DNA of 64,000 nucleotides from Verrucomicrobiota bacterium (lineage in GTDB: Bacteria > Verrucomicrobiota > Verrucomicrobiia > Limisphaerales > VHDF01), in NCBI GenBank assembly GCA_016871495.1, contig VHDF01000016.1:1-64000 (forward strand), given 5' to 3'. The translations under genes were made by a program, and so were the position numbers. The notes beneath the pieces are model-generated. The model worked only from the letters and a program-made list of their open reading frames with translations. It was not told the DNA's origin and made no database searches. Position 1 is the first letter of the stretch. Each line of letters starts with the position of its first letter. Below, piece by piece: positions 44,251-53,727 of this stretch.

Positions 44251-44322
44251 AGGCTGCGCGTCAGCACGCGGCCGAGTCTCCACAACTCAGCTTACTCCGG
44301 GCAGCACGGAGGCAGCCTGCCC
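44251..44322 (+). tRNA. tRNA-Trp(CCA)
   Basis: Acceptor AGGCTGC / GCAGCCT is perfect with G73, the Trp discriminator. The anticodon loop CTCCACA gives CCA. The T-arm is CTCCG-GGCAGCA-CGGAG, a non-canonical loop. The 3' end reads CCC rather than CCA. Confidence 0.75.
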
Positions 44323-44331
44323 TTTTCATTT

Positions 44332-44406
44332 GGGGTCGTGGCAGACAAGCAATGCACTTGCCCTGCAAGCAAGCTGATGTGGGAGCGTTACCCACCGACT
44401 CCACCA
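44332..44406 (+). tRNA. tRNA-Ala(TGC)
   Basis: Acceptor GGGGTCG / CGACTCC contains the G3-T70 pair that identifies alanine tRNA, with A73 and encoded CCA. The anticodon arm CTTGC-CCTGCAA-GCAAG gives TGC, with C at position 33. T-loop AGCGTTA. Confidence 0.85.
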
Positions 44407-44415
44407 ATCTTCAAC

Positions 44416-44494
44416 TGCGGGAAACTCGACCAGATGCACAGAGAGAAGCCTCATAAACTTCTTCAGGTGGGTGTGACTCCCACTCCCGCTACCA
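44416..44494 (+). tRNA. tRNA-Met(CAT), possibly initiator-like
   Basis: Acceptor TGCGGGA / TCCCGCT leaves a T1-T72 mismatch, as unpaired 1-72 bases do in initiator tRNA. The anticodon loop is CTCATAA. T-arm GTGGG-TGTGACT-CCCAC. A73 and CCA are encoded. The three G-C pairs of initiator anticodon stems are absent, so the initiator role is uncertain. Confidence 0.75.
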
Positions 44495-44501
44495 ATTCAC
44501 T

Positions 44502-44591
44502 GGGAAGTGATCCGGCTGCCCGACGGTAAATCGGGCGTCAGAAAACAAAAGCGGAAGTGACGAACTGGAGCATGACCAGCACTTCCCACCA
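44502..44591 (+). tRNA. tRNA-Tyr(GTA) with D-arm missing
   Basis: Acceptor GGGAAGT / ACTTCCC is perfect with A73 and CCA. The anticodon arm CCCGA-CGGTAAA-TCGGG gives GTA with G at position 33. A long variable arm (GTCA ... TGAC) fits tyrosine. Only 9 nt separate acceptor and anticodon stems, so there is no D-arm. T-loop AGCATGA. Confidence 0.7.
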
Positions 44592-44625
44592 GCCTTCGCC
44601 ATAGCTTCGCTGGGCCAGCCATTTC

Positions 44626-44701
44626 GGACTCGTAGCTCAATGAGCAGAGCAACCCGTTGTCTGCGGGAAGGCTGAGGGTGCAAGTCCCTTCGGGTCCGCC
44701 A
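44626..44701 (+). tRNA. tRNA-Asp(GTC)
   Basis: Acceptor GGACTCG / CGGGTCC with G73 (the Asp discriminator) and encoded CCA. The anticodon loop TTGTCTG gives GTC. D-loop AATGAGCA has no GG, and T-loop is TGCAAGT. Confidence 0.85.
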
Positions 44702-44706
44702 TTTCT

Positions 44707-44982
44707 CGGAACGCAGCTCAGTCTTTAGAGCACCCGGCTTGGGACCGGGAGGCCACAGGTGGAAATCCTGCCGTTCCGTGCCAGCGGTCGAATCAAATTG
44801 ACCCGTCCGGGGTCGAAATGATTGACCCGTCGCTCATTGTCGCAAAAAGAGACATGTTTTCTTTAAATCATTCCGCAACAACGTGATAAGGGAGTGATTT
44901 AAAGGAAACATGTCGGCCAGGGTGGGTCAGCCATTTCGACCCCGGACGGGTCAATCAATTCGACCGCTGACAGTTCCGACCA
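44707..44982 (+). tRNA. tRNA-Pro(TGG) interrupted by a 194-bp element
   Basis: Acceptor CGGAACG (44707-44713) pairs with CGTTCCG (44772-44778). The anticodon arm CCCGG-CTTGGGA-CCGGG gives TGG with G37. The A73-CCA end is now at 44979-44982, on the far side of a palindromic insertion at 44779-44972. The target duplication GTTCCG leaves either copy able to form the acceptor stem. T-loop TGGAAAT. Confidence 0.85.
44779..44972. mobile_element. 194-bp palindromic MITE in tRNA-Pro
   Basis: Terminal inverted repeats of about 50 bp begin TGCCAGCGGTCGAAT at left and TGTCAGCGGTCGAAT at right (complement). A second inverted pair GACATGTTT ... AAACATGTC lies inside, so nearly the whole element is a hairpin. 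A 6-bp duplication GTTCCG flanks it (44773-44778, 44973-44978). The ends resemble IS21-type termini from memory. It encodes nothing. Confidence 0.92.
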
Positions 44983-44991
44983 TCTCCTATT

Positions 44992-45067
44992 GCTGCCGTG
45001 GTCGAATACATGAGGCGTCCGTCTTCTAAACGGAACGATGCAGGTGGGGATCCTGTCGGCAGCACCA
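44992..45067 (+). tRNA. tRNA-Arg(TCT)
   Basis: Acceptor GCTGCCG / CGGCAGC with A73 and CCA. The anticodon arm TCCGT-CTTCTAA-ACGGA gives TCT. T-loop TGGGGAT. The D-arm is poorly paired. Confidence 0.85.
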
Positions 45068-45068
45068 T

Positions 45069-45142
45069 TGCCAGGTAGTGTGAAAGTAGCACGGCGGCCT
45101 GTTAAGCCGCTTGTCTTGGTGCGAGTCCAAGTCTGGCAGCCA
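45069..45142 (+). tRNA. tRNA-Asn(GTT)
   Basis: Acceptor TGCCAGG / TCTGGCA with G73 and CCA. The anticodon arm GCGGC-CTGTTAA-GCCGC gives GTT. D-loop GAAAGTA lacks GG. T-loop TGCGAGT. Only one base separates it from tRNA-Arg(TCT). Confidence 0.9.
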
Positions 45143-45343
45143 ATATAAGTTAGTTCATTCGCGATGGGCGAGCCTCGTGCGGATCGCCGCGTCAATCTCA
45201 ACCCTGAATTGCCACATCCTCCGGATGATTGGCCGAGCAGAAATAACCCGGTCCCGAATACCGACTGAAACTCCGGGTTGCGTGGCCGCCATCTCTGGAC
45301 CATCCGCCCTTTTCAAACACTTAACGAAAGGACACTCCATTCC

Positions 45344-45499
45344 ATGAAGCCTGTCATCCGTAATCAAAGCTCATTGCTCTTTCGCAAGAGCTATAAGCCG
45401 AATCGTCTTATTCGCATCCGACCCACGGCCAAGCCCGGCGTCACCTTTCGTCCGATGCGACAGTTCGGTTTGAAGCCGCAACTTGAATTCGTCTCGTAG
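45344..45499 (+). CDS. Small basic protein within the tRNA array
   Basis: A 51-residue frame (MKPVIRNQSSLLFRKS ...) has a purine-rich AACGAAAGGA upstream as a possible ribosome site. It is strongly basic, with many Arg and Lys, which would suit RNA binding. Its TAG stop lies inside the tRNA-Ile gene. No family is recognised, and it could be chance. The stretch 45143-45343 has no tRNA or clear gene. Confidence 0.4.
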   Translation: MKPVIRNQSSLLFRKSYKPNRLIRIRPTAKPGVTFRPMRQFGLKPQLEFVS

Positions 45500-45563
45500 C
45501 TCAAAAGCAGAGCACCCGCCTGATAAGCGGGAGAACGCGGAGCGTTACCGCGCGGGACGACCA
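45490..45563 (+). tRNA. tRNA-Ile(GAT)
   Basis: Acceptor CGTCTCG / CGGGACG with A73 and CCA. The anticodon arm CCCGC-CTGATAA-GCGGG gives GAT. D-loop AAAAGCA lacks GG. T-arm CGCGG-AGCGTTA-CCGCG. Confidence 0.88.
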
Positions 45564-45600
45564 TCCTTCGCTCCCCGAGCTACGGCTCGGCGAGTCCCTT

Positions 45601-45675
45601 CCCCGAGTAGCTGAGGCAGATTAGCGCCTCGCTGAAGACGAGGAGACGTTGGTGCGATACCAACCTCGGGGACCA
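45601..45675 (+). tRNA. tRNA-Phe(GAA)
   Basis: Acceptor CCCCGAG / CTCGGGG with A73 and CCA. The anticodon arm CCTCG-CTGAAGA-CGAGG gives GAA. T-arm GTTGG-TGCGATA-CCAAC. Confidence 0.88.
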
Positions 45676-45680
45676 TTTCG

Positions 45681-45758
45681 GTCCGTGAATGCAAAACAGC
45701 TCAAGCAGCCGGCCTTTCAAGTCGGGCCTAATCGGTGCAAGTCCGATCACGGATGCCA
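45681..45758 (+). tRNA. tRNA-Glu(TTC)
   Basis: Acceptor GTCCGTG / CACGGAT with G73 and CCA. The anticodon arm CCGGC-CTTTCAA-GTCGG gives TTC. T-arm ATCGG-TGCAAGT-CCGAT. The D-arm is weak. Confidence 0.85.
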
Positions 45759-45762
45759 TTTT

Positions 45763-45840
45763 GTCCGCGTAGCTCAGTGAGATCAGAGCGCCACCGTGCG
45801 AAGGTGGAGGTCGCAGGTGCGATTCCTGCCGTGGACGCCA
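45763..45840 (+). tRNA. tRNA-Arg(GCG)
   Basis: Acceptor GTCCGCG / CGTGGAC with G73 and CCA. The anticodon arm CCACC-GTGCGAA-GGTGG gives GCG. Bacteria normally read CGN arginine codons with ACG (inosine), so G34 is unusual. D-loop AGTGAGATCA lacks GG. T-loop TGCGATT. Confidence 0.85.
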
Positions 45841-45844
45841 CTTT

Positions 45845-45920
45845 GCCTCTGTGCCTCAGAAGCGACAGGACGAGTTTTGTAAACTCGTATTCGTCGGTGC
45901 GAGTCCGACCAGAGGCTCCA
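45845..45920 (+). tRNA. tRNA-Thr(TGT)
   Basis: Acceptor GCCTCTG / CAGAGGC with T73 and CCA. The anticodon arm CGAGT-TTTGTAA-ACTCG gives TGT. T-arm GTCGG-TGCGAGT-CCGAC. Confidence 0.87.
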
Positions 45921-45926
45921 TTTCAT

Positions 45927-46001
45927 GGTGATCATGATGTAACAGCAGCATCACGCCCCGTGAAGGCGTTTGTGCCGGTGCGAATCCGACTGGTCACCCC
46001 A
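45927..46001 (+). tRNA. tRNA-His(GTG)
   Basis: The extra G(-1) opposite C73, diagnostic of histidine tRNA, precedes acceptor GTGATCA / TGGTCAC. CCA is encoded. The anticodon arm ACGCC-CCGTGAA-GGCGT gives GTG, with C at position 33. D-loop TAACAGCAG lacks GG. T-loop TGCGAAT. Confidence 0.87.
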
Positions 46002-46003
46002 TT

Positions 46004-46165
46004 TTCGACGGGTCGCAGGATTGGGTTATCGTTCATCACGACGTGGTCGCCGGTTCGAGTCCGGCCTCCGGAACCAATGCCGGAGTAGCTCAGGGGTAGA
46101 GCGCGTATTCCCAGTTCGTCTCTTATCCGTCGTCCATCGCTGCGGCTCGACCAAGTCGCAGCCTA
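46004..46165 (+). ncRNA. Permuted tRNA-like RNA 1, candidate Y RNA (YrlA type)
   Basis: A canonical T-arm GCCGG-TTCGAGT-CCGGC (46046-46065 region) is followed by an acceptor-like hairpin CTCCGG / CCGGAG (46066-46071 with 46080-46085). Then comes a D-arm GCTC-AGGGGTA-GAGC (46088-46102) that has the GG missing from the array tRNAs. So the 3' half precedes the 5' half, as in bacterial YrlA Y RNAs. The left part could also be read as a poor tRNA-Met(CAT), with two acceptor mismatches. A 3' hairpin GCTGCG / CGCAGC follows. Boundaries are approximate. Confidence 0.55.
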
Positions 46166-46190
46166 ATCCTCCACAATACAAATCGTACTT

Positions 46191-46985
46191 ATGAGATCAG
46201 ACATGCACAAAGTCGTCGTCGAGCGGCCACGGAAAGATCGCCATTGGGCCAAGTCGCGACCGCGTCCGAAACCGCCCTTCGATGACCTGCCTCACCATGA
46301 ATCCATCAAAGCTCGGCACATACACCGCAAACACTTCAGCGATCTGCTTGGGCCCCTCAAACGTTGGTTGCGCTCGCAAGTCGGCCGTCCCTGGAACGAT
46401 ATTTATTCCGAGGCGTGTGCGGTCATCAAACCGGACAGCATCGTCCGCGCCCACATCAAGGGACACATGCTCCAATATGTGCAACGCCACACCTTCATGC
46501 ACGGTGGTAAGGTTTGCGTGATCGATCAAGACTATCTTAGGTTGGGTATGATTCCTGTGGAGGAACGGCAGCACTGTTCAAATCTATTCTTTGTTCATCC
46601 TGACACAGGCTTGCTGTGCGCTGTCGCACAGCCGCCAAGCAAACACCTCGAGATTCCGAGGCCGCGGAAGCAGCCGGAGACACTACGCTGGCTCAACGAA
46701 TGTTTTGCGTTAAAACAAATAAAGGGCCTTTGGTTTGAATGCCAGTTTCGCCACGTCCCGCCCAAAGGACAACTTCGGGTCTACGACCATGCGCTTGGAA
46801 AGCATGTCCTCCGCAAGAAATTGCATTGGCGCGATGGGCAACAACTGCACTGTTTCGCCAAGCGCCAGCTTTCGCGCCGCCAATTGCGCCACTTTGGCCT
46901 GCGCAATTCACCGATCGCTTCCTCCATTGGGGCGCAGTCTTCAGTCCGAAGCTTTGGCTTTGGGTTGAGGACTGCGCTCCAGTAG
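46191..46985 (+). CDS. Conserved uncharacterised protein of tRNA-array islands
   Basis: The 264-residue basic protein opens HKVVVERPRKDRHW, followed by GPLKRWLRSQVGRPWNDIYSEACAVI and VRAHIKGHMLQYVQRHTF. I recall homologous hypothetical proteins with the VERPR start and VGRPWxxxYSE core, without known function. A start at 46203 (MHKVVVERPR) fits that N-terminus better than 46191. It has no transmembrane segment. The C-terminal 25 residues are low in similarity and may be a frame extension. It sits between the two permuted tRNA-like RNAs. Confidence 0.7.
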   Translation: MRSDMHKVVVERPRKDRHWAKSRPRPKPPFDDLPHHESIKARHIHRKHFSDLLGPLKRWLRSQVGRPWNDIYSEACAVIKPDSIVRAHIKGHMLQYVQRHTFMHGGKVCVIDQDYLRLGMIPVEERQHCSNLFFVHPDTGLLCAVAQPPSKHLEIPRPRKQPETLRWLNECFALKQIKGLWFECQFRHVPPKGQLRVYDHALGKHVLRKKLHWRDGQQLHCFAKRQLSRRQLRHFGLRNSPIASSIGAQSSVRSFGFGLRTALQ

Positions 46986-47004
46986 TGGCGGGCCGGACCT
47001 AGAT

Positions 47005-47108
47005 TGTGGGTTCTCGCGTGTTATGGGTTCAAATCCAGCGGCCGGCTCGACAGGTCGGCCTAGCTCAACGGTAGAGCAGCCCCGCTTTGTTCGCGGGGAA
47101 ATTCCACG
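47005..47108 (+). ncRNA. Permuted tRNA-like RNA 2, candidate Y RNA upstream of the Ro gene
   Basis: A T-loop TTCAAAT (47028-47034) leads into an acceptor-like hairpin GGCCGGC / GTCGGCC (47040-47046 with 47054-47060, seven pairs). The D-arm GCTC-AACGGTA-GAGC (47063-47077) follows. The outer segments GTGGG-TTCTCGCG and CGCGGGGAAATTCCAC can pair with bulges, closing the module as in bacterial Y RNAs. CCCCGC-TTTGTTC-GCGGGG is an alternative hairpin. Position upstream of the TROVE gene supports the assignment. The published Ro-binding consensus was not located. Confidence 0.6.
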
Positions 47109-47183
47109 GCATCCCTTGCCCATCTGAATCTTGATCGGTCCGCGGCTGTCGACATCCAACCGCACCATGCATACGGAGGCCGT

Positions 47184-47264
47184 ATGGCAAACAACACACA
47201 AGATGATTCCCCTTTTGAAATCACCAGCAAGCGACGCAAAGGTTTCCCGTCGAGACTCGGGTGA
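47184..47264 (+). CDS. Small leader-like ORF
   Basis: A 26-residue frame ([20 protein letters not shown] ...) has a strong ribosome site GGAGG 4 bp before ATG. Its TGA stop overlaps the GTG start of the SEC-C frame (GTGA), so the two are probably coupled, or they are one gene broken by frameshift. Confidence 0.45.
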
Positions 47265-47359
47265 AACGTGGCGTGCGCGTCGTTCACGGTCAAAAGGAGC
47301 TCTTTGAAAGGCTCGGGCGCAAGGATCTTTGCCCGTGCGGTTCAGGACGCAGCTTTTAA
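47261..47359 (+). pseudogene. SEC-C motif peptide, frameshifted
   Basis: From GTG at 47261 the frame reads [20 protein letters not shown] and then meets TAA within TTTTAA. Removing one T continues the SEC-C zinc motif as KNCCLRSGRY. The single-base insertion in a T run has split the motif. A complete SEC-C protein lies at 31368-31877. Confidence 0.5.
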
Positions 47360-47562
47360 GAACTGCTGTCTCCGCTCCGGACGTTACGACGGTTCAAAAC
47401 GGAATCACTTTTTTCCGCGAGTAGTCATCCATCAATTTCTGCGGGCCGAAGAACATGGGTTACCTCTGTTCAAGGACAATTCCCACGTTCCCAACTTGCC
47501 CGCAGTTCAACCCACGCAATCGTGCCGAGAGTTGGCGGCGCATCAGATGAAAGGAGGCCTCC

Positions 47563-49254
47563 ATGGCTATCCACTACGCGAAGCATTTGAACCGACGCCG
47601 CACACCCCAGTCGCAACCGATTCCCGGCACGAACCAGGTTCGCAACTCGAACAGCTGTTGCTCGTGGCAGGTGGATGACTGGACGCGCCTCGACCGCTTC
47701 CTGATCCTCGGTGCTGAAGGCGGCACCTACTACATCAACGAGCGCGATCTGGTGAAGCAGAACCACGACGCCATCGTGCGTTGCATCAAGGCGGACGGTG
47801 TTCGCGCCGTGAACCGCATCGTTGAAATCAGCGATGCCGGTCGCGCGCCGAAGAACGATCCGGCCATCTTCGCTCTCGCGCTGGTCGCGACGCACGGTGA
47901 TGCGCAGGCCAAGGCTGCTGCGTTCGCGAACCTGGGCAAGGTCTGCCGCATCGGGACCCACCTGTTCCACTTCGCGGAATACGTGAACGCGATGCGCGGT
48001 TGGGGTCGCGGTCTGCGCAACGCCGTGGCGCGTTGGTATGGGGACTCTGAAGCCGACGCTCTCGCCTACCAGGCTGTGAAGTATCAGCAGCGCGACGGTT
48101 GGTCGCACGGTGACCTGCTCCGCCTTGCTCATCCGAAGGCCCCTTCGCCACAGCACGATGCGGTCTTCCGCTGGATGCTCAACGGCGCGGAGTCGCTCCG
48201 CGAACGCGAAGTGAAGCGCAAGGTTCGCGGTGAGGACCGCGTGGCAAAGTATGGTGCGGTCGGCGCACTGCCGAAGATCATCGAAGCGTTCGAGCAGGCC
48301 AAGCGAGCATCGAGCAAGGATGAAATCGTGAAGCTCATCACGGAGTTCGACCTGCCGCGCGAAGCCCTCCCGACGCAGTGGCTCAACGAGGTCGCTGTCT
48401 GGGACGCGCTGCTCGCTCGCATGCCCATGATGGCCATGGTTCGCAACCTCGCCAAGATGACAAGCATCGGCCTCATCAAGCCATTCAGCGATGCCAAGAA
48501 ACTCGTTCTTCGGAAGCTGAAGGATGAAACGGCGCTGAAGCGTTCGCGCCTCCACCCGCTCGCCGTTCTGGTGGCACAGAAAATCTACGCCCAGGGGCAC
48601 GGCGACAAAGCTGCGCTAAAGTGGTCGCCAGTCTCGGCGATCGTAGACGCACTGGATGAGGCGTTCTACGCGACGTTCCCTAACGTTGAGCCGTGCAACA
48701 AGCCGGTTCTGCTCGCACTCGACGTGAGCGGTTCGATGGCGTGCTCGATCATCGCCGGTTCCAGTATCAACGCCCGTGAAGCGAGCGCAGCCATGGCGCT
48801 GATCACGGCGGCGACGGAGCCGGAACATGAAATCATCGGGTTCTCCGCTCCAGATCGTGGTGGTTACGGCGGGATGCATGGCGGCGGTGAACCGGGCATC
48901 ACCCGCGTCAACGTGTCGCCTCGCATGAGACTCTCCGAAGTCATCAAGCACATCGAAAGCATTCCGATGGGCGGCACGGACTGCTCTCTGCCCATGTTGT
49001 GGGCGGCCCGCAACAAGCTGAACGTGTCAGGCTTCGTGACCTACACGGACAGTGAAACGTGGGCGGGCAACATTCATCCGGCGCAAGCGCTGCGTCAGTA
49101 TCGCAGTGAGTTCGTCGGAGACGCAAAGGCGGTCGTTGTCGGCATGACCTCCAACGGCTTCACCCTCGCTGATCCGAACGACCGCGGAATGCTCGACGTG
49201 GTGGGCTTCGACACATCCGTGCCGGCAGTGATTGCGAACTTCGTTCGCGAGTAG
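47563..49254 (+). CDS. rsr: Ro60/Rsr-like TROVE-domain RNA-binding protein
   Basis: The 563-residue ortholog of the Ro autoantigen binds Y RNAs and misfolded small RNAs. The N-terminal TROVE HEAT-repeat ring spans about residues 25-370 (ERDLVKQNHDAIVRCIKADGV, FALALVATHGDAQAKAAAF, WLNEVAVWDALLARMPMMAM). The C-terminal von Willebrand A domain has the complete metal site DVSGSM (Asp387), then GGTDCSLP and TYTDSETW. AGGAGG lies 6 bp before the ATG. In other bacteria it works with Y RNA and polynucleotide phosphorylase or beside RtcB; here it lies inside a tRNA array, just after a candidate Y RNA. Confidence 0.93.
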   Translation: MAIHYAKHLNRRRTPQSQPIPGTNQVRNSNSCCSWQVDDWTRLDRFLILGAEGGTYYINERDLVKQNHDAIVRCIKADGVRAVNRIVEISDAGRAPKNDPAIFALALVATHGDAQAKAAAFANLGKVCRIGTHLFHFAEYVNAMRGWGRGLRNAVARWYGDSEADALAYQAVKYQQRDGWSHGDLLRLAHPKAPSPQHDAVFRWMLNGAESLREREVKRKVRGEDRVAKYGAVGALPKIIEAFEQAKRASSKDEIVKLITEFDLPREALPTQWLNEVAVWDALLARMPMMAMVRNLAKMTSIGLIKPFSDAKKLVLRKLKDETALKRSRLHPLAVLVAQKIYAQGHGDKAALKWSPVSAIVDALDEAFYATFPNVEPCNKPVLLALDVSGSMACSIIAGSSINAREASAAMALITAATEPEHEIIGFSAPDRGGYGGMHGGGEPGITRVNVSPRMRLSEVIKHIESIPMGGTDCSLPMLWAARNKLNVSGFVTYTDSETWAGNIHPAQALRQYRSEFVGDAKAVVVGMTSNGFTLADPNDRGMLDVVGFDTSVPAVIANFVRE

Positions 49255-49291
49255 CGAACGGTCCAAAGGACGCCAAGACAAGGTAACCACG

Positions 49292-49322
49292 CAGGCGGAG
49301 GTGAAAGCTTCCGCCTGCGCTT
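49292..49322 (+). terminator. Probable terminator of the TROVE gene
   Basis: The strong hairpin GCAGGCGGA / TTCCGCCTGC is followed by a weak T/C run. It sits 40 bp after the stop codon and 10 bp before tRNA-Cys. It may instead be a processing hairpin. Confidence 0.55.
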
Positions 49323-49331
49323 CCCACTTCT

Positions 49332-49406
49332 ATCCCGTTGGCCGAGCAGTTCAGGCGGCGGTTTGCAAAACCGCAGAGGCTGGTGCGATTCCAGCACGGG
49401 ATTCCA
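49332..49406 (+). tRNA. tRNA-Cys(GCA)
   Basis: Acceptor ATCCCGT / ACGGGAT with T73 (the Cys discriminator) and CCA. The anticodon arm GCGGT-TTGCAAA-ACCGC gives GCA. T-arm GCTGG-TGCGATT-CCAGC. Confidence 0.88.
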
Positions 49407-49412
49407 TTTCTC

Positions 49413-49487
49413 CGAGCATAAGTGTTGAGAGATACACGCCGGTCTTCCAAACCGGAATACAGGGCGCGCTACCCTGATGCTCGTCCA
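49413..49487 (+). tRNA. tRNA-Gly(TCC)
   Basis: Acceptor CGAGCAT / ATGCTCG is perfect, with T73 and CCA. The anticodon arm CCGGT-CTTCCAA-ACCGG gives TCC. D-loop TGAGAGAT, T-loop CGCGCTA. The first pair C-G is unlike common glycine tRNAs. Confidence 0.83.
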
Positions 49488-49491
49488 TTTT

Positions 49492-49564
49492 CGCGACGCG
49501 AACCGGTGCCGGTCAGGACTTCACAGGCCTGGCTGCGGCGGTTCAACTCCGCCTTCGCGTCGCG
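49492..49564 (+). tRNA. tRNA-like gene with 11-bp acceptor helix
   Basis: CGCGACGCGAA pairs with TTCGCGTCGCG over 11 bp. The T-arm is canonical, GGCGG-TTCAACT-CCGCC. A CAGG(A)C / GCCTG stem with loop TTCACAG would give CAC (Val) if an A is bulged. No CCA follows. It may be a pseudo-tRNA or a tRNA mimic. Confidence 0.4.
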
Positions 49565-49569
49565 TCTCT

Positions 49570-49660
49570 TTCGGGCTGCAAGCACTGCAGCGATGCAGCG
49601 GTCTCTTAAACCCACAAAGCGCAGAGGTCCTTGCGCACGGCCCTCAAGGGCAGCACCGAG
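49570..49660 (+). pseudogene. Degenerate tRNA, Lys(CTT)-like
   Basis: A loop CTCTTAA between GGT and ACC could be an anticodon CTT, and GCTGC / GCAGC may be a partial acceptor followed by ACCG. The T-arm is not recognisable. Confidence 0.25.
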
Positions 49661-49677
49661 GCGACCCACCATCCTTC

Positions 49678-49716
49678 GCCGATGTGGCTCAGCAGCGACA
49701 GCACCCGTTTGGTAAG
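49678..49716 (+). pseudogene. 5' half of a tRNA (Thr(GGT)-like) cut by repeat B
   Basis: Acceptor strand GCCGATG, D-arm GCTC-AGCAGCGACA-GCAC and the start of an anticodon loop TTGGTAA are present. Dispersed repeat B begins directly after, so the 3' half is lost. Confidence 0.4.
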
Positions 49717-50262
49717 CTCAGACATCCTGACCTCAAGCGGGAGATGCGGGACGGATGCAGAAGGGATGTGAGACCAGAGTGACGTGAAGCCGGCTCAGTC
49801 GCAAGCCGGAGGCTTGCCAGCTGTGAGCCGGTGGTTGAGAGGCGAAGCGACGATACCACCGGTCCACAGGGTCGCCCAAGCATATGCATCCGGAAGGGAT
49901 GCCAGCGTCACAGGTGCCGATACCCGGGGTGTGCGGGTTTCAGGTCTCCAGAGCCGATGCTTCATGGGCAAGGGGCGGACCGCTCATCCCTGAGCTCCAG
50001 GTCAAAAGAACAAGGGAGAGAACCGGAAGTAATGGTTGCACGGTTCCTTAGCCCTCTGCGACCCCTTCCGGGGTCGACGACGCTGTCGTGCCCAGGATCC
50101 GGGGGTGGCGCTCGTGCCTCGCGCCACCCCCGGGTTATGGCTGGCATCCCTTCGGGATGACCCGTGGTCGAGCAGACTTTTGTTCCGCGACCGATGCGTT
50201 GTGTTTTTTCGCCGCTTCAGACCGTCGCATGCTGAGACCACTAACCTCCGCATCGTCGATCG
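49717..50262. repeat. Dispersed repeat B, copy 2, with extra palindromes
   Basis: The first 290 bp match 38581-38870. An additional internal part holds a perfect hairpin CCGGGGGTGGCGC / GCGCCACCCCCGG (50090-50130) and CATCCC-TTCG-GGGATG, of REP type. The shared right end is at about 50232-50262. No gene is seen up to the next tRNA at 50370. Confidence 0.72.
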
Positions 50263-50369
50263 GCTCCATTTCGAGGAAGGAACGGCAGATTGAACAATCG
50301 TTGAGAGAACCGTTGGGCATCATCGTTCAACGGGATCTCTGCCTTCGGCGCTCCTTCTTCGATCCTTTT

Positions 50370-50445
50370 GCTCCCGTAGCTCAACCATCAGAGCGCCGCG
50401 CTTCGAACGCGGAGGTTGCAGGTGAGATTCCTGCCGGGAGTGCCA
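50370..50445 (+). tRNA. tRNA-Arg(TCG)
   Basis: Acceptor GCTCCCG / CGGGAGT with G73 and CCA. The anticodon arm CCGCG-CTTCGAA-CGCGG gives TCG. D-loop AACCATCA lacks GG. T-loop TGAGATT. Confidence 0.87.
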
Positions 50446-50447
50446 AT

Positions 50448-50535
50448 TGCGGGCATGGGGTTCAACCCGAACAGCAGAGGGTCCAGACTCAGAATCGAAC
50501 AGCCTGGGGAGTGCAATGCTCCCCACGCCGACCCG
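50448..50535 (+). pseudogene. Degenerate class II tRNA, Leu(CAG)-like
   Basis: A 5' GCGGGCA and a loop CTCAGAA resemble leucine tRNA, and a T-arm GGGGAG-TGCAATG-CTCCCC is clear. The acceptor does not close and CCA is missing. Confidence 0.35.
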
Positions 50536-50538
50536 TTT

Positions 50539-50630
50539 GGAATGTCAACCGGACGAGCGAGCCGGACCTGTTTGCTAAACAGTGGGCTCCCCGAATGGGG
50601 AGTGTGGTGCGAGTCCACGGCATTCCGCCA
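50539..50630 (+). tRNA. tRNA-Ser(GCT)
   Basis: Acceptor GGAATGT / GCATTCC with G73 and CCA. The anticodon loop TTGCTAA gives GCT. A long variable arm (CTCCCCGAATGGGGAG) fits serine. T-loop TGCGAGT. Confidence 0.88.
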
Positions 50631-50667
50631 TTCTCTCGTCGAGTTAGGAGGCTTCCGGAGCCATGGC

Positions 50668-52020
50668 CTACTCGAGTTGCGCGATCCTTTCGGCTTCGCG
50701 CAGCAAGCCATTGAGTGCTTCGCGATCCAGATACCGTCCACGCAAAACCACAGCGCGAATCCCTTTGGTGTTGGTAATCTTCTCCAACGGATTCGCGTCC
50801 AGCAGGACGAGGTCGGCGATCTTGCCCACAGCGACGGTGCCTGTGTCGTCCAACTTCAGAAACGCGGCGGGATTGCGCGTGGCGGACTGCAGGGCCTGCA
50901 TCGGCGTGAGTCCGGCCTGGACCATCAGTTCAAGTTCGTCGTGGAGGTCGAATCCCGGATACGAACCGGCCGGACCCACATCGGAACCGGCGAGCAAGAG
51001 CACACCGGCCTGTTGCATCTTTTTGACGAGCGGCAGTGCGATCCGGAATTCCTGCGCCTTGTTCTCATAAAATTCCGGCGTCAACTGATTCTTGTCTCGG
51101 GAGACCAGTTCCGCGGTCCACTGGGCGGCGGATCGTGAGACGTATTTGTCCCGCGGGTTCGGATTCGTCCGGCCGAACTGAGTCGCCATCCGATGCGAGA
51201 CCAGGGTGGGAGTAAAGGCCGTCTTGTTGCTGGAGAAGAGCGCAAACAACGCGTCCGCCGATTCCTGTGCGAACCTGTCGAGTGCCGCGGCGTAAGATTC
51301 GCTTTGGTGAGAATGGGCGAAAGTTCCTTCGAAGAGCGTTATCACGTGCTCAATGAATGCTTGTCCCGCCTGGGAGGCCTCCTGCGGCGTCACCGTTCTC
51401 GGAATGTGCCCCGCGACCGAAAGCCCCAGCTTCCGGCTTTCATCGACCGCACCGAAGTAGGCCTCGCGGGAAATCGCACGATGAACCTTGATGCAGTCCA
51501 CTCCACACTTGTAAAGGGCACGCACGGCCCCGCGCGCCTCTGATTCGTTCATGACCGCAACCTAGTGAACTCCAAACTGGCGGCCGTTCAGCGTTGGCCC
51601 GGCGCGGATAATGCGCGGACCGACCAACAATCCTGAGTCGATTTTGATTCGCCATTCGTCGATGTCCCGGAGAAGACCGCCCAAATCACGCACGCCGGTC
51701 ACTCCGTTCGCGACCAGCGCCGGCAAGGCGCTCGCTCTCGTCGAGAACATGTGAATATGCATGTCCCAGAGCCCAGGGATCAGATATTTGCCGGAGGCAT
51801 CGATCACCTTTGCGTTCCGGGGAACCGCCACGCTTCCATCCTTGCCCAGCGCCTGAATCCGGTTACCTTCAATCACCACCGTCATTCCGGACTGGGCCAA
51901 TGCGCCGGAGCCGTCGATGACCGTCACGTGGGAAATGACAGCTAGGTTCGTGTCGGTGGTCGGCTGGGCGGCGAAAACTGGAAGCGCCGCCGCAGCGAAG
52001 AGGATGAGCAGCCGAACCAT
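50668..52020 (-). pseudogene. Exported amidohydrolase with in-frame TAG
   Basis: A single 451-codon frame encodes a metal-dependent amidohydrolase (imidazolonepropionase-like). A signal peptide (LLILFAAAALPVFAAQ) is followed by the metal motif GLWDMHIHMF, GHIPRT, AGSDVGPAGSYPG and the C-terminal GTVAVGKIADLVLLDANPLE. Codon 153 is TAG, after NGRQFGVH, and the frame continues VAVMNESEARG without shift. It is either a nonsense-broken gene or read through. It is the only minus-strand gene within the array and looks like a later insertion. Confidence 0.75.
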
Positions 52021-52123
52021 AAGGCAACCTATGAAAAGTCATGTTTCACGTCATGAAAATTCTCGCACCAACGGTGGCGGGAATTCCCGGTGCCAGCCCC
52101 GATTCCGAATGGATTTCCTTCAT

Positions 52124-52216
52124 GCGCGCGTAGCTCAAAGAGAGCCGGCGGCCTTATACCCCGCATCGCACTAGATCAGTGCCGGGTTCCGGAGCGTTAC
52201 CGGACGCGCCTACCCA
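52124..52216 (+). tRNA. Class II-like tRNA, anticodon TAT (uncertain)
   Basis: D-arm GCTC-AAAGA-GAGC, anticodon stem GCGG / CCGC with centre CTTATAC (TAT, isoleucine), a long variable arm GCACT / AGTGC and T-arm TCCGG-AGCGTTA-CCGGA. The acceptor GCGCGCG / CGCGCCT has a C-C mismatch and the end reads ACCCA. A long variable arm is not expected in an isoleucine tRNA. Confidence 0.45.
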
Positions 52217-52219
52217 TTT

Positions 52220-52295
52220 GTCCCCATAGCTCAACCCACAGAGCAGACGTGTCCTCAGCGTCAGGTTGTCGGTGAGAGTCCGGCTGGGGACACCA
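52220..52295 (+). tRNA. tRNA-Arg(CCT)
   Basis: Acceptor GTCCCCA / TGGGGAC with A73 and CCA. The anticodon arm GACGT-GTCCTCA-GCGTC gives CCT. D-loop AACCCACA lacks GG. T-loop TGAGAGT. Confidence 0.82.
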
Positions 52296-52299
52296 CTTT

Positions 52300-52380
52300 G
52301 GGCGGGTGGTTAAGCGGGAAAAGCAGACCGCGCAGATCGAGAGTCTATGAGCCTTGGAGGTGCAAGTCCTCTCTCGCCCA
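52300..52380 (+). tRNA. tRNA-like gene, anticodon unassigned
   Basis: Acceptor GGGCGGG / CTCGCCC and T-arm GGAGG-TGCAAGT-CCTCT are good. The anticodon region (GAC CG ... CG AGA GTC) does not form a standard stem, and no CCA is encoded. Confidence 0.5.
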
Positions 52381-52390
52381 TTCATTTCAA

Positions 52391-52467
52391 GGAGTCGAAG
52401 CCACAGCAGACCGGCACCGGACTTTTAATCCGGTAGGGTGAGGTTGCAACTACCTCCGGCTCCACCA
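52391..52467 (+). tRNA. tRNA-Lys(TTT)
   Basis: Acceptor GGAGTCG / CGGCTCC with A73 and CCA. The anticodon arm CCGGA-CTTTTAA-TCCGG gives TTT. T-arm GAGGT-TGCAACT-ACCTC. Confidence 0.9.
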
Positions 52468-52473
52468 ATTCAT

Positions 52474-52547
52474 TGCCGGGTCGTCTAATCGTAGGACAGC
52501 GCCCTTTGAAGGCGCGAATGCTGGTGCGATTCCAGCCCTGGCAGCCA
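52474..52547 (+). tRNA. tRNA-Gln(TTG)
   Basis: Acceptor TGCCGGG / CCTGGCA with G73 and CCA. The anticodon arm GCGCC-CTTTGAA-GGCGC gives TTG. D-loop TAATCGTAG lacks GG. T-loop TGCGATT. Confidence 0.9.
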
Positions 52548-52571
52548 GTCCTGGCAAGTCGAGCTTCAACC

Positions 52572-52645
52572 CGCCCGGTGGTGAAATAGCATCACGTCTG
52601 GCCTACACCCAGAAATCGAGGGGGCAGAACCTTCTCGGGCGACCA
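52572..52645 (+). tRNA. tRNA-Val(TAC)
   Basis: Acceptor CGCCCGG / TCGGGCG with A73 and CCA. The anticodon arm TCTGG-CCTACAC-CCAGA gives TAC with C at position 33. D-arm GTGA-AATAGCA-TCAC. T-loop GGCAGAA. Confidence 0.82.
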
Positions 52646-52647
52646 TG

Positions 52648-52722
52648 GCCTCGTTGCATCATCAGGAGTGCGCCGGTCTCTGACACCGGAGGACCTGGAG
52701 CGAAGCCAGGCGAGGCAGCCCA
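52648..52722 (+). tRNA. tRNA-Gln(CTG)-like
   Basis: The anticodon arm CCGGT-CTCTGAC-ACCGG gives CTG and the T-arm is CCTGG-AGCGAAG-CCAGG. The acceptor GCCTCGT / GCGAGGC pairs, but the 3' end reads AGCCCA, so one or two bases are out of place. Confidence 0.6.
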
Positions 52723-52802: not shown

Positions 52803-53387
52803 ATGAGCGACATACTGAACAAGACCATTGTGCTGGTGCTGAACCGCAACTGGCAGGCGATGAACATTCGCACGCCACAGGAGGCGTTCTGCCAAATGGC
52901 CACGAACGTTGCGACCGCGCTGGAAATTGACGGCGAGAACCACATCCGCCCCGTCACGTGGGACGAGTGGATCACGCTGCCCATCCGCGATGGCGACAAC
53001 GCGGTCCAGACTGTGCGCGGTGCGATCCGCGTGCCAACCGTAATTGTGGCGATGAACTTCGCGAAGGTGCCCAAGAAGCGTCCGAAGCTCTGCGCAAAGA
53101 CCATCCGCGAACGCGACGGCAATCGTTGCCAGTACAGCGGCAAGCTTCTGCGCCCTGACGAAGGCAGCCTCGACCACGTTCTTCCCCGCTCCCGCGGCGG
53201 CAAGGACGCCTGGGACAATCTCGTGTGGGCAGACAAGGCCGTGAACGCGAAGAAAGGCAACCGCCTGCCGCACGAGGCTGGCTTGCAGCTACTCACCCTG
53301 CCGCGCGCACCGAAGGAACTGCCCGTGACGGCACTCATTCGCAACGCCTACGGCATCGTGGATTGGAAGATGTTCGTGAAGGAATGA
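52803..53387 (+). CDS. HNH endonuclease-like protein
   Basis: The 194-residue protein belongs to a widespread HNH family that opens with VLVLNRNWQAMN. The nuclease core is RDGNRCQYSGKLLRPDEGSLDHVLPRSRGGKDAWDNLVWADKAVNAKKGN, with the catalytic His in LDHV and the Asn and His/Asn ligands after it. HNH genes of this type often sit in phage tRNA clusters. The start at 52803 avoids overlap with the tRNA upstream. No strong ribosome site is visible. A terminator-like hairpin follows. Confidence 0.85.
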   Translation: MSDILNKTIVLVLNRNWQAMNIRTPQEAFCQMATNVATALEIDGENHIRPVTWDEWITLPIRDGDNAVQTVRGAIRVPTVIVAMNFAKVPKKRPKLCAKTIRERDGNRCQYSGKLLRPDEGSLDHVLPRSRGGKDAWDNLVWADKAVNAKKGNRLPHEAGLQLLTLPRAPKELPVTALIRNAYGIVDWKMFVKE

Positions 53388-53429: not shown

Positions 53430-53538
53430 TGTAAAATAGACTATGACTGTGAACGACCTGCCGACGATTTGCCGGTTTTCAGTGTCCACATCATCTGAGA
53501 AATCGAAGTCGTCGTTCAACTCAGGAAGAACTGCCAAT

Positions 53539-53727
53539 ATGACCCCAACTCAAATCCACACCACGGATTGCCGCCTTTATCCGAAGGACGAAGCGCCAGC
53601 CGCTTATAAAGACTTCAACGCAGTGCTCGATTCCGTGAAAGCCGCTGGACTGGCAAGCGAAGTCGCACGACTTAATGCCCGCTTCGTCATCAAAGATTCC
53701 GAGATGAGCCTGAAAGGGGCGGCTTGA
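53539..53727 (+). pseudogene. rtcB: C-terminal remnant of RNA ligase RtcB
   Basis: About 60 residues contain LYPKDEAPAAYKDFNAVLDSV, followed by AGLASEVARLNARFVIKD. I recognise this as the C-terminal end of RtcB (E. coli RtcB ends near DESPAAYKDIDAVMAAQ). The catalytic core with its metal and GMP ligands is absent upstream. The frame is open back to 53443, but that part is not RtcB. In other bacteria rtcB is near rsr and Y RNA genes. Confidence 0.65.

Follow-up and report, generated by a model that had tools for sequence, protein, structure and literature searches.

The window analysed here is the whole stretch of 64,000 nucleotides from contig VHDF01000016.1 of a Verrucomicrobiota bacterium. 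The bacterial host assembly (5.06 Mb in 201 contigs) is, judged by its relatives, a Verrucomicrobia metagenome-assembled genome, and many of the other genomes analysed are metagenome-assembled too. Between positions 44332 and 52718, the window carries an array of ~23 different tRNA genes, all on the + strand and with anticodons almost without repeats. Few residues in biology are as conserved as G18 of the D-loop and U55 of the T-loop (as pseudouridine, psi55) of canonical tRNAs, which form a near-universal contact that makes the fold. In the array tRNAs, this one tertiary contact appears to have been switched from G18-U55 to A18-G55, with the 19-56 pair staying Watson-Crick. The A18-G55 contact is predicted from the letters at the two positions, and the elbow is probably rebuilt rather than dissolved.

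The array units were read directly, aligned by covariance model, and re-found with a cloverleaf scanner blind to the loop letters; 12 of the window tRNAs scored above the Rfam cut-off. All three approaches confirmed the altered T-loops and the missing D-loop GG that had been claimed in an earlier, sequence-only reading of the window. G55 was present in 23/23 array tRNAs with a readable T-loop, with the Sec-like unit at 49491–49563 as the T55 exception. The commonest T-loop was T54 G55 C56 R57 A58 N59 T60 (TGCRANT), and others were AGCGTTA (Ala, Ile-GAT, Ile-TAT), CGCGCTA (Gly), GGCAGAA (Val) and AGCGAAG (Gln-CTG), or started with TGA (two Arg), TGG (Pro, Arg-TCT) or TGT (Met). The T-loops listed in that reading were recovered except for GGCAGCA, which is not in the window, tRNA-Val reading GGCAGAA. 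In most G55 units, TGCRA matched the sequence of the UGxRA T-loop motif (U1 G2 x3 R4 A5).

Uncertain D-arms aside, GG was absent from the D-loops of all elongator-type units, whose 3' part usually read A18 G19 N20 A21 (e.g., AATGAGCA, GAAAGTA, AAAAGCA). The earlier description of these loops as lacking GG was thus correct but incomplete, since G18 alone is exchanged for A18, G19 is normally kept, and the changing pair is 18-55. Where C56 was altered, position 19 was altered with it: tRNA-Arg(TCG) at 50370 combined T19 with A56 (AACCATCA/TGAGATT), and tRNA-Pro at 44707 had T19 opposite G56. The array tRNAs lack the canonical elbow of G18 G19 and T54 U55 C56, but the retention of G19 and the covariation of 19-56 ruled out a simple loss of the elbow along with GG.

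Covariation of the elbow positions

Covariation was analyzed in 238 distinct units from 97 loci, using only unambiguous 7-base D-loops. Positions 18/55 were A-G in 141 units, G-T in 83, G-C in 7 and other combinations in 7, giving a mutual information of 0.876 bits compared with a shuffle maximum of 0.065, which bears out the covariation of 18 with 55 that the sequence-only reading had proposed to look for. Positions 19/56 were G-C in 227 units, A-T in 6, T-A in 2 and others in 3 (0.259 bits; shuffle maximum 0.053). No association beyond chance was seen for the cross pairs 18-56 and 19-55, and 19/56 covaries independently of 18/55. Positions 54/58 also changed together (TA, GG, AT, CA, AA, CC).

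Distribution among bacteria

Among the host tRNAs outside the array, 43/44 had canonical GG and T55. The sole exception was a solitary tRNA-Glu(CTC) with the A18/G55 elbow, located outside any array (G000:C44:12802-12873, − strand). Loss or gain of an encoded CCA was ruled out as a difference between array and host, because 44/44 host tRNAs encode CCA.

A covariance model built from the host and array tRNAs was run over 58 sources, comprising the window and 57 loci anchored on Ro60. In 21 Verrucomicrobia Ro60 (TROVE) arrays, G55 was found in 193/209 well-formed units (92%), and the 16 T55 cases were mainly Y-RNA-like RNAs or odd neighbours, plus two GG-bearing tRNAs of locus L054. At 21 Ro60-linked loci of other phyla, G55 was found in 0/150 units and GG in 148/150, which rules out the switch as a trait of all Ro60-linked arrays. 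Searched with the T-arm pattern, ~30 of 146 genomes from the order had switched clusters, as did several further families within the class; the same search gave no switched cluster in the rest of the phylum outside the class. The expectation that other arrays would show the pattern was accordingly borne out for related Verrucomicrobia and for phages, but not for Ro60 arrays of other phyla or for two plasmid arrays.

Integrity of the array tRNAs

The units form cloverleaves with intact paired stems and U33, and nearly all encode the 3' CCA, the window tRNA-Pro lacking it. Among G55 units, the Ala identity element G3:U70 was present in 20/20 viral (among the matches listed) and 3/4 bacterial tRNAs, and the His element G-1:C73 in 24/34 viral (among the matches listed) and 4/4 bacterial tRNAs. 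Position 73 followed a pattern by amino acid close to that of the host. Each array has 16–23 anticodons, hardly any of them repeated, and nearly all isotypes are switched. These features fit real, chargeable-looking tRNAs, which would be charged and would decode.

Neutral decay of a dispensable array could leave damaged units such as those in the window (the tRNA-Pro without CCA, a tRNA broken by a repeat, an RtcB remnant). In place of the random scatter of changes that decay would produce, which the sequence-only reading had named as the counter-case to its claim of coordinated selection, G55 was 92% conserved over 21 loci, covariation was strong, and stems and identity elements were intact. 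Because 18 and 55 change in coordination, the pattern is conserved across loci and the identity elements are kept, decay is excluded for practical purposes, and selection on an alternative elbow is supported.

Staphylococcal cell-wall tRNA-Gly also has altered D- and T-loops, and a similar elbow might keep charged tRNA off EF-Tu and the ribosome, feeding another pathway. The elbow is indeed read by the ribosome (PMC4810234), but coverage of nearly all amino acids by 16–23 anticodons per array points to decoding rather than to one side pathway, and the 19-56 platform is kept. We consider such a non-translational role very improbable.

Phage and viral arrays

The pattern used for IMG/VR required two adjacent switched T-arms, and the contigs recovered are predicted viruses, cultured isolates being the firm cases. 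At least 120 stretches with two adjacent switched T-arms were found in IMG/VR viral contigs. The loop-blind cloverleaf scanner identified 712 G55 and 514 T55 units among the matches listed, a G55 share that is biased by the T-arm search; the D-loop is unbiased. In 58 mixed viral arrays among the matches listed, GG occurred in 408/449 units with T55 compared with 22/365 with G55 (Fisher p 3e-150), with the same direction in 57/58 loci; a chance association is excluded. T54 was found in 93% of the T55 units and 67% of the G55 units among the viral matches listed.

Among cultured phages, Brevundimonas phage Kikimora had 3 switched tRNAs among 19 read, Brevundimonas phage Domovoi had 2, and Caulobacter phage CcrColossus had 1, a tRNA-Phe without annotation in its record. 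The tRNA-Val beside tRNA-Phe was switched in the Brevundimonas phages and canonical in CcrColossus, and the remaining phage and plasmid arrays checked were canonical. At least one tRNA-Phe being unannotated in cultured-phage records, standard annotation misses part of the switched class.

A third, rarer type with C55 and G18 was also seen in viral loci (7 units with an unambiguous D-loop; e.g., TCTGATT in L156). Ro60-like genes lie near switched arrays in three predicted viral contigs (L198:8795-9886, L227:1087-2706 and L166:12368-13708).

Neighbouring genes and RNAs

The Ro60 gene within the window array matched NF041674 at 2e-149, below the equivalog cut-off, and the closest Ro60 proteins came from Verrucomicrobia/Pedosphaera metagenome-assembled genomes. 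Two RNAs in the array had been described in the sequence-only reading as permuted RNAs keeping TTC and GG; both look Y-RNA-like, the one at 46006–46135 having canonical TTC and GG and an RF02553 match of 40.5 bits, below the Rfam cut-off. An RF01656 match scored above the cut-off (41.5 bits) directly upstream of the Ro60 gene at another locus (L055:3016-3086). The nematode RNAs of RF01656 are homologous to Y RNAs, and an additional RNA bound by Ro60 may thus lie at 47437–47506 in the window. In relatives, full-length RtcB-family genes are found inside or behind the array, and an HNH gene behind it. PADLOC detected no defence system beyond weak HNH matches.

An open reading frame of 264 amino acids (46191–46985) lies between the two YrlA-like RNAs; it had no family match in Pfam, NCBIfam or PADLOC, and L077 was the only Ro60-anchored locus in which a relative was found.

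Possible roles of the switched elbow

Residue 18 of canonical tRNA is inserted between residues 57 and 58 and touches psi55 (PMC4810234), and UGxRA is the consensus of T-loop motifs outside tRNA (PMC7583486). In the array tRNAs, A18 would replace G18 as the base intercalated into the T-loop and contact G55, 19 and 56 would keep their Watson-Crick pair with 54/58 co-varying, and the T-loop would become one of the UGxRA type. With the switch in sequence, the TruB target U55 is gone, neither psi55 nor Gm18 would be expected, and U54 would no longer be required. The array may represent a stand-by set with nearly one tRNA per anticodon, tied to RNA-damage genes (Ro60, Y-RNA-like RNAs, RtcB in relatives, HNH), which most likely sustains translation once the housekeeping tRNAs have been damaged or have run short. 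The changed elbow would free this set from a factor reading G18-U55, which could be a nuclease or the modification and chaperone enzymes TruB, TrmA and TrmH, and phages may plausibly carry the same elbow for the same reason. Taken as a whole, this is the explanation towards which we lean, albeit only slightly. A stand-by set for tRNA damage is favoured because Ro60, Y-RNA-like RNAs, RtcB and HNH genes lie nearby and because of the Anabaena trn array, whose expression rises under translation stress and which is repressed together with rtcB (PMC10272220).

Several observations weigh against the stand-by explanation. The T-arm of the switched tRNA-Glu(CTC) recurs in several array-less genomes of the order, and given this solitary gene the switched elbow also exists outside stress arrays. 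Because elbows are canonical in the non-Verrucomicrobia Ro60 arrays and in the two plasmid arrays, the switch is not a requirement for a stand-by array. Canonical and switched tRNAs occur side by side in many phage arrays, and the window RtcB is a remnant, with no intact copy beside the Ro60 gene. The shuffles used for covariation ignore ancestry; descent alone would hardly produce the four-way pattern or the contrast seen within arrays.

The sequence-only reading had offered evasion of tRNA-cleaving defence nucleases or a fit to a different modification enzyme as the reason for the switch, and either may hold. Escape from a nuclease might account for the switch by itself, if A18/G55 removes the sequence or shape needed by an elbow- or T-loop-directed tRNase (of host defence or a competitor toxin), letting stand-by tRNAs of phages and bacteria outlast the attack. 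A toxin is known to cleave the T-loop between T and pseudouridine (PMC9086364), the switch is common to phage arrays and RNA-damage-linked arrays, and RtcB ligase genes occur inside the arrays of relatives. As a search around these loci revealed no such nuclease, PADLOC giving only weak HNH matches, and the best-known tRNases target the anticodon loop, nuclease escape as the sole cause seems unlikely.

Alternatively, the switch might serve only to make the tRNAs independent of modification, G55 and the relaxed 54 and 18 allowing folding without TruB, TrmA and TrmH during rapid tRNA production under stress or infection. We regard this as quite unlikely, since U54 and A58 are kept in most G55 units, so that TrmA could still act, and nothing points to TruB as limiting. 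In its favour, U55 is lost outright, U54 is relaxed in the G55 class only, and TruB is encoded by the host; modifications of psi55 and G18 normally stabilise the 18-55 contact (PMC7912444), and TruB and TrmA are elbow chaperones (PMC12503941).

Beyond the stand-by explanation, A18-G55 may be a second natural elbow, defining a parallel translating set in Verrucomicrobia and phages that is invisible to factors or weapons reading G18-U55; we hold this wider claim to be possible but somewhat doubtful.

Relation to known systems

The array tRNAs share the cloverleaf, encoded CCA, U33, R57, 19-56 platform and identity elements with tRNAs having the canonical elongator elbow (G18-psi55, G19-C56, T54-A58), but differ in A18-G55, in a relaxed 54/58 (TA, GG, AT, CA, AA), and in a 19-56 pair that is sometimes T-A, A-T or C/T with a purine. 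The five-letter consensus TGCRA is the same as that of UGxRA T-loops outside tRNA, such as the double T-loop of the T-box riboswitch (PMC7583486), whereas the array motif lies inside whole tRNAs and its docking partner would be A18 of the D-loop. tRNA-Pyl and metazoan mitochondrial tRNAs also lack GG and TTC (PMC7609411); these lose the contact or use others, while the array swaps one defined pair across nearly all isotypes with 19-56 maintained. Staphylococcal non-proteinogenic tRNA-Gly comprises a single glycine isotype, in contrast to nearly all isotypes in the array.

Like the array, the Anabaena trn operon (26 tRNAs, PMC10272220) is a large tRNA set apart from housekeeping genes, and the rtcB and HNH genes co-regulated with it have counterparts adjacent to or inside the array in the window or its relatives. 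Cyanobacteria differ in having canonical elbows in a Calothrix plasmid array (12/12 units) and in a Ro60-linked array. The rsr-yrlBA-rtcBA repair operon (PMC7790460) shares Ro60/Rsr, candidate Y-RNA-like RNAs and RtcB (in relatives), although here these are embedded in a tRNA array and the window has an RtcB remnant only.

According to a review, no tRNA modification is conserved more universally than psi55 (PMC7912444), and no earlier description of an A18/G55 tRNA class was found in the open-access literature searched. A large natural class that swaps 18 and 55 jointly, apart from 19-56, implies that the elbow is open to rebuilding. The class provides ready material for probing the purpose of the G18-psi55 contact, and suggests that some agent in phage-host conflict or RNA damage exerts selection on the elbow.

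Organization of the array

Table 1 Features of the tRNA array in the window (scan, loop-blind cloverleaf scan; loops given as D-loop / T-loop).
Feature	Position	Strand	Loops and other traits	Support
tRNA-Ala(TGC)	44332..44406	+	T-loop AGCGTTA; G3:U70 present	ARAGORN, sequence, scan
tRNA-Met(CAT)-like	44416..44494	+	T-loop TGTGACT (G55, U56); D-arm uncertain	by eye
tRNA-Asp(GTC)	44626..44701	+	AATGAGCA / TGCAAGT	Rfam 49.8 bits, scan
tRNA-Pro(TGG)	44707..44779	+	AGTCTTTA / TGGAAAT (T19, G56); no 3' CCA	Rfam 48.2 bits, scan
tRNA-Arg(TCT)	44992..45067	+	AATACATG / TGGGGAT	Rfam 43.7 bits, scan
tRNA-Asn(GTT)	45069..45142	+	GAAAGTA / TGCGAGT (A18 G19)	Rfam 52.3 bits, scan
tRNA-Ile(GAT)	45490..45563	+	AAAAGCA / AGCGTTA	Rfam 50.3 bits, scan
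tRNA-Phe(GAA)	45601..45675	+	AGGCAGAT / TGCGATA	Rfam 52.0 bits, scan
tRNA-Glu(TTC)	45681..45758	+	T-loop TGCAAGT	scan
tRNA-Arg(GCG)	45763..45840	+	AGTGAGATCA / TGCGATT	Rfam 59.3 bits, scan
tRNA-Thr(TGT)	45845..45920	+	T-loop TGCGAGT	Rfam 51.0 bits, scan
tRNA-His(GTG)	45928..46001	+	AACAGCA / TGCGAAT; G-1:C73 present	Rfam 39.4 bits, alignment, sequence
YrlA-like Y RNA	46006..46135	+	canonical TTC and GG	RF02553 40.5 bits, E 2.6e-6, gathering 69 not reached
Second YrlA-like fragment	47016..47080	+		RF02553 18.2 bits, E 7.4, weak
Possible further Y RNA	47437..47506	+	directly upstream of Ro60 gene	RF01656 33.8 bits, E 7e-4, gathering 38 not reached
TROVE/Ro60 (Rsr) gene	47563..49254	+	within array	PF05731 7e-49, PF25045 3e-61 (both over cut-off)
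tRNA-Cys(GCA)	49332..49406	+	T-loop TGCGATT; U73	Rfam 52.1 bits, scan
tRNA-Gly(TCC)	49413..49487	+	T-loop CGCGCTA	scan; weak Rfam match 24.5 bits
Sec-like unit	49491..49563	+	T-loop TTCAACT (T55 exception)	RF01852 23.5 bits (below cut-off), scan
tRNA 5' part, GGT anticodon	49675..49720	+	broken by dispersed repeat	by eye
tRNA-Arg(TCG)	50370..50445	+	AACCATCA / TGAGATT (T19-A56)	Rfam 61.8 bits, scan
tRNA-Ser(GCT)	50539..50630	+	T-loop TGCGAGT	ARAGORN low threshold, scan
TAT-anticodon tRNA	52123..52216	+	AAAGA / AGCGTTA; long variable arm	ARAGORN, covariance model, scan
tRNA-Arg(CCT)	52220..52295	+	AACCCACA / TGAGAGT	Rfam 40.6 bits, scan
Leu-type unit	52300..52380	+	T-loop TGCAAGT	Rfam 27.5 bits, covariance model
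tRNA-Lys(TTT)	52391..52467	+	T-loop TGCAACT	scan
tRNA-Gln(TTG)	52474..52547	+	AATCGTA / TGCGATT	Rfam 54.8 bits, scan
tRNA-Val(TAC)	52572..52645	+	T-loop GGCAGAA	Rfam 38.0 bits, scan
tRNA-Gln(CTG)	52647..52718	+	T-loop AGCGAAG	covariance model, scan
HNH protein	52806..53387	+	at array end; conserved in related arrays	PF13395 6e-9; tblastn in relatives
RtcB remnant	53443..53727	+	short open reading frame; C-terminal end only	PF01139 positions 358-425, 3e-7

A dispersed repeat at 49700–49880 breaks one of the array tRNAs, and another copy of it lies on another contig in the opposite orientation (L110:6610-6770), beside the tRNA-Glu(CTC). A group II intron considered for 49700–50080 was rejected, as it had no Rfam support and the stretch is the dispersed repeat. 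An amidohydrolase gene in two frames (50668–52020, − strand) lies inside the array as an apparent insertion, and an inverted repeat of ~160 bases between array tRNAs (44796–44956) is perhaps a miniature transposable element.

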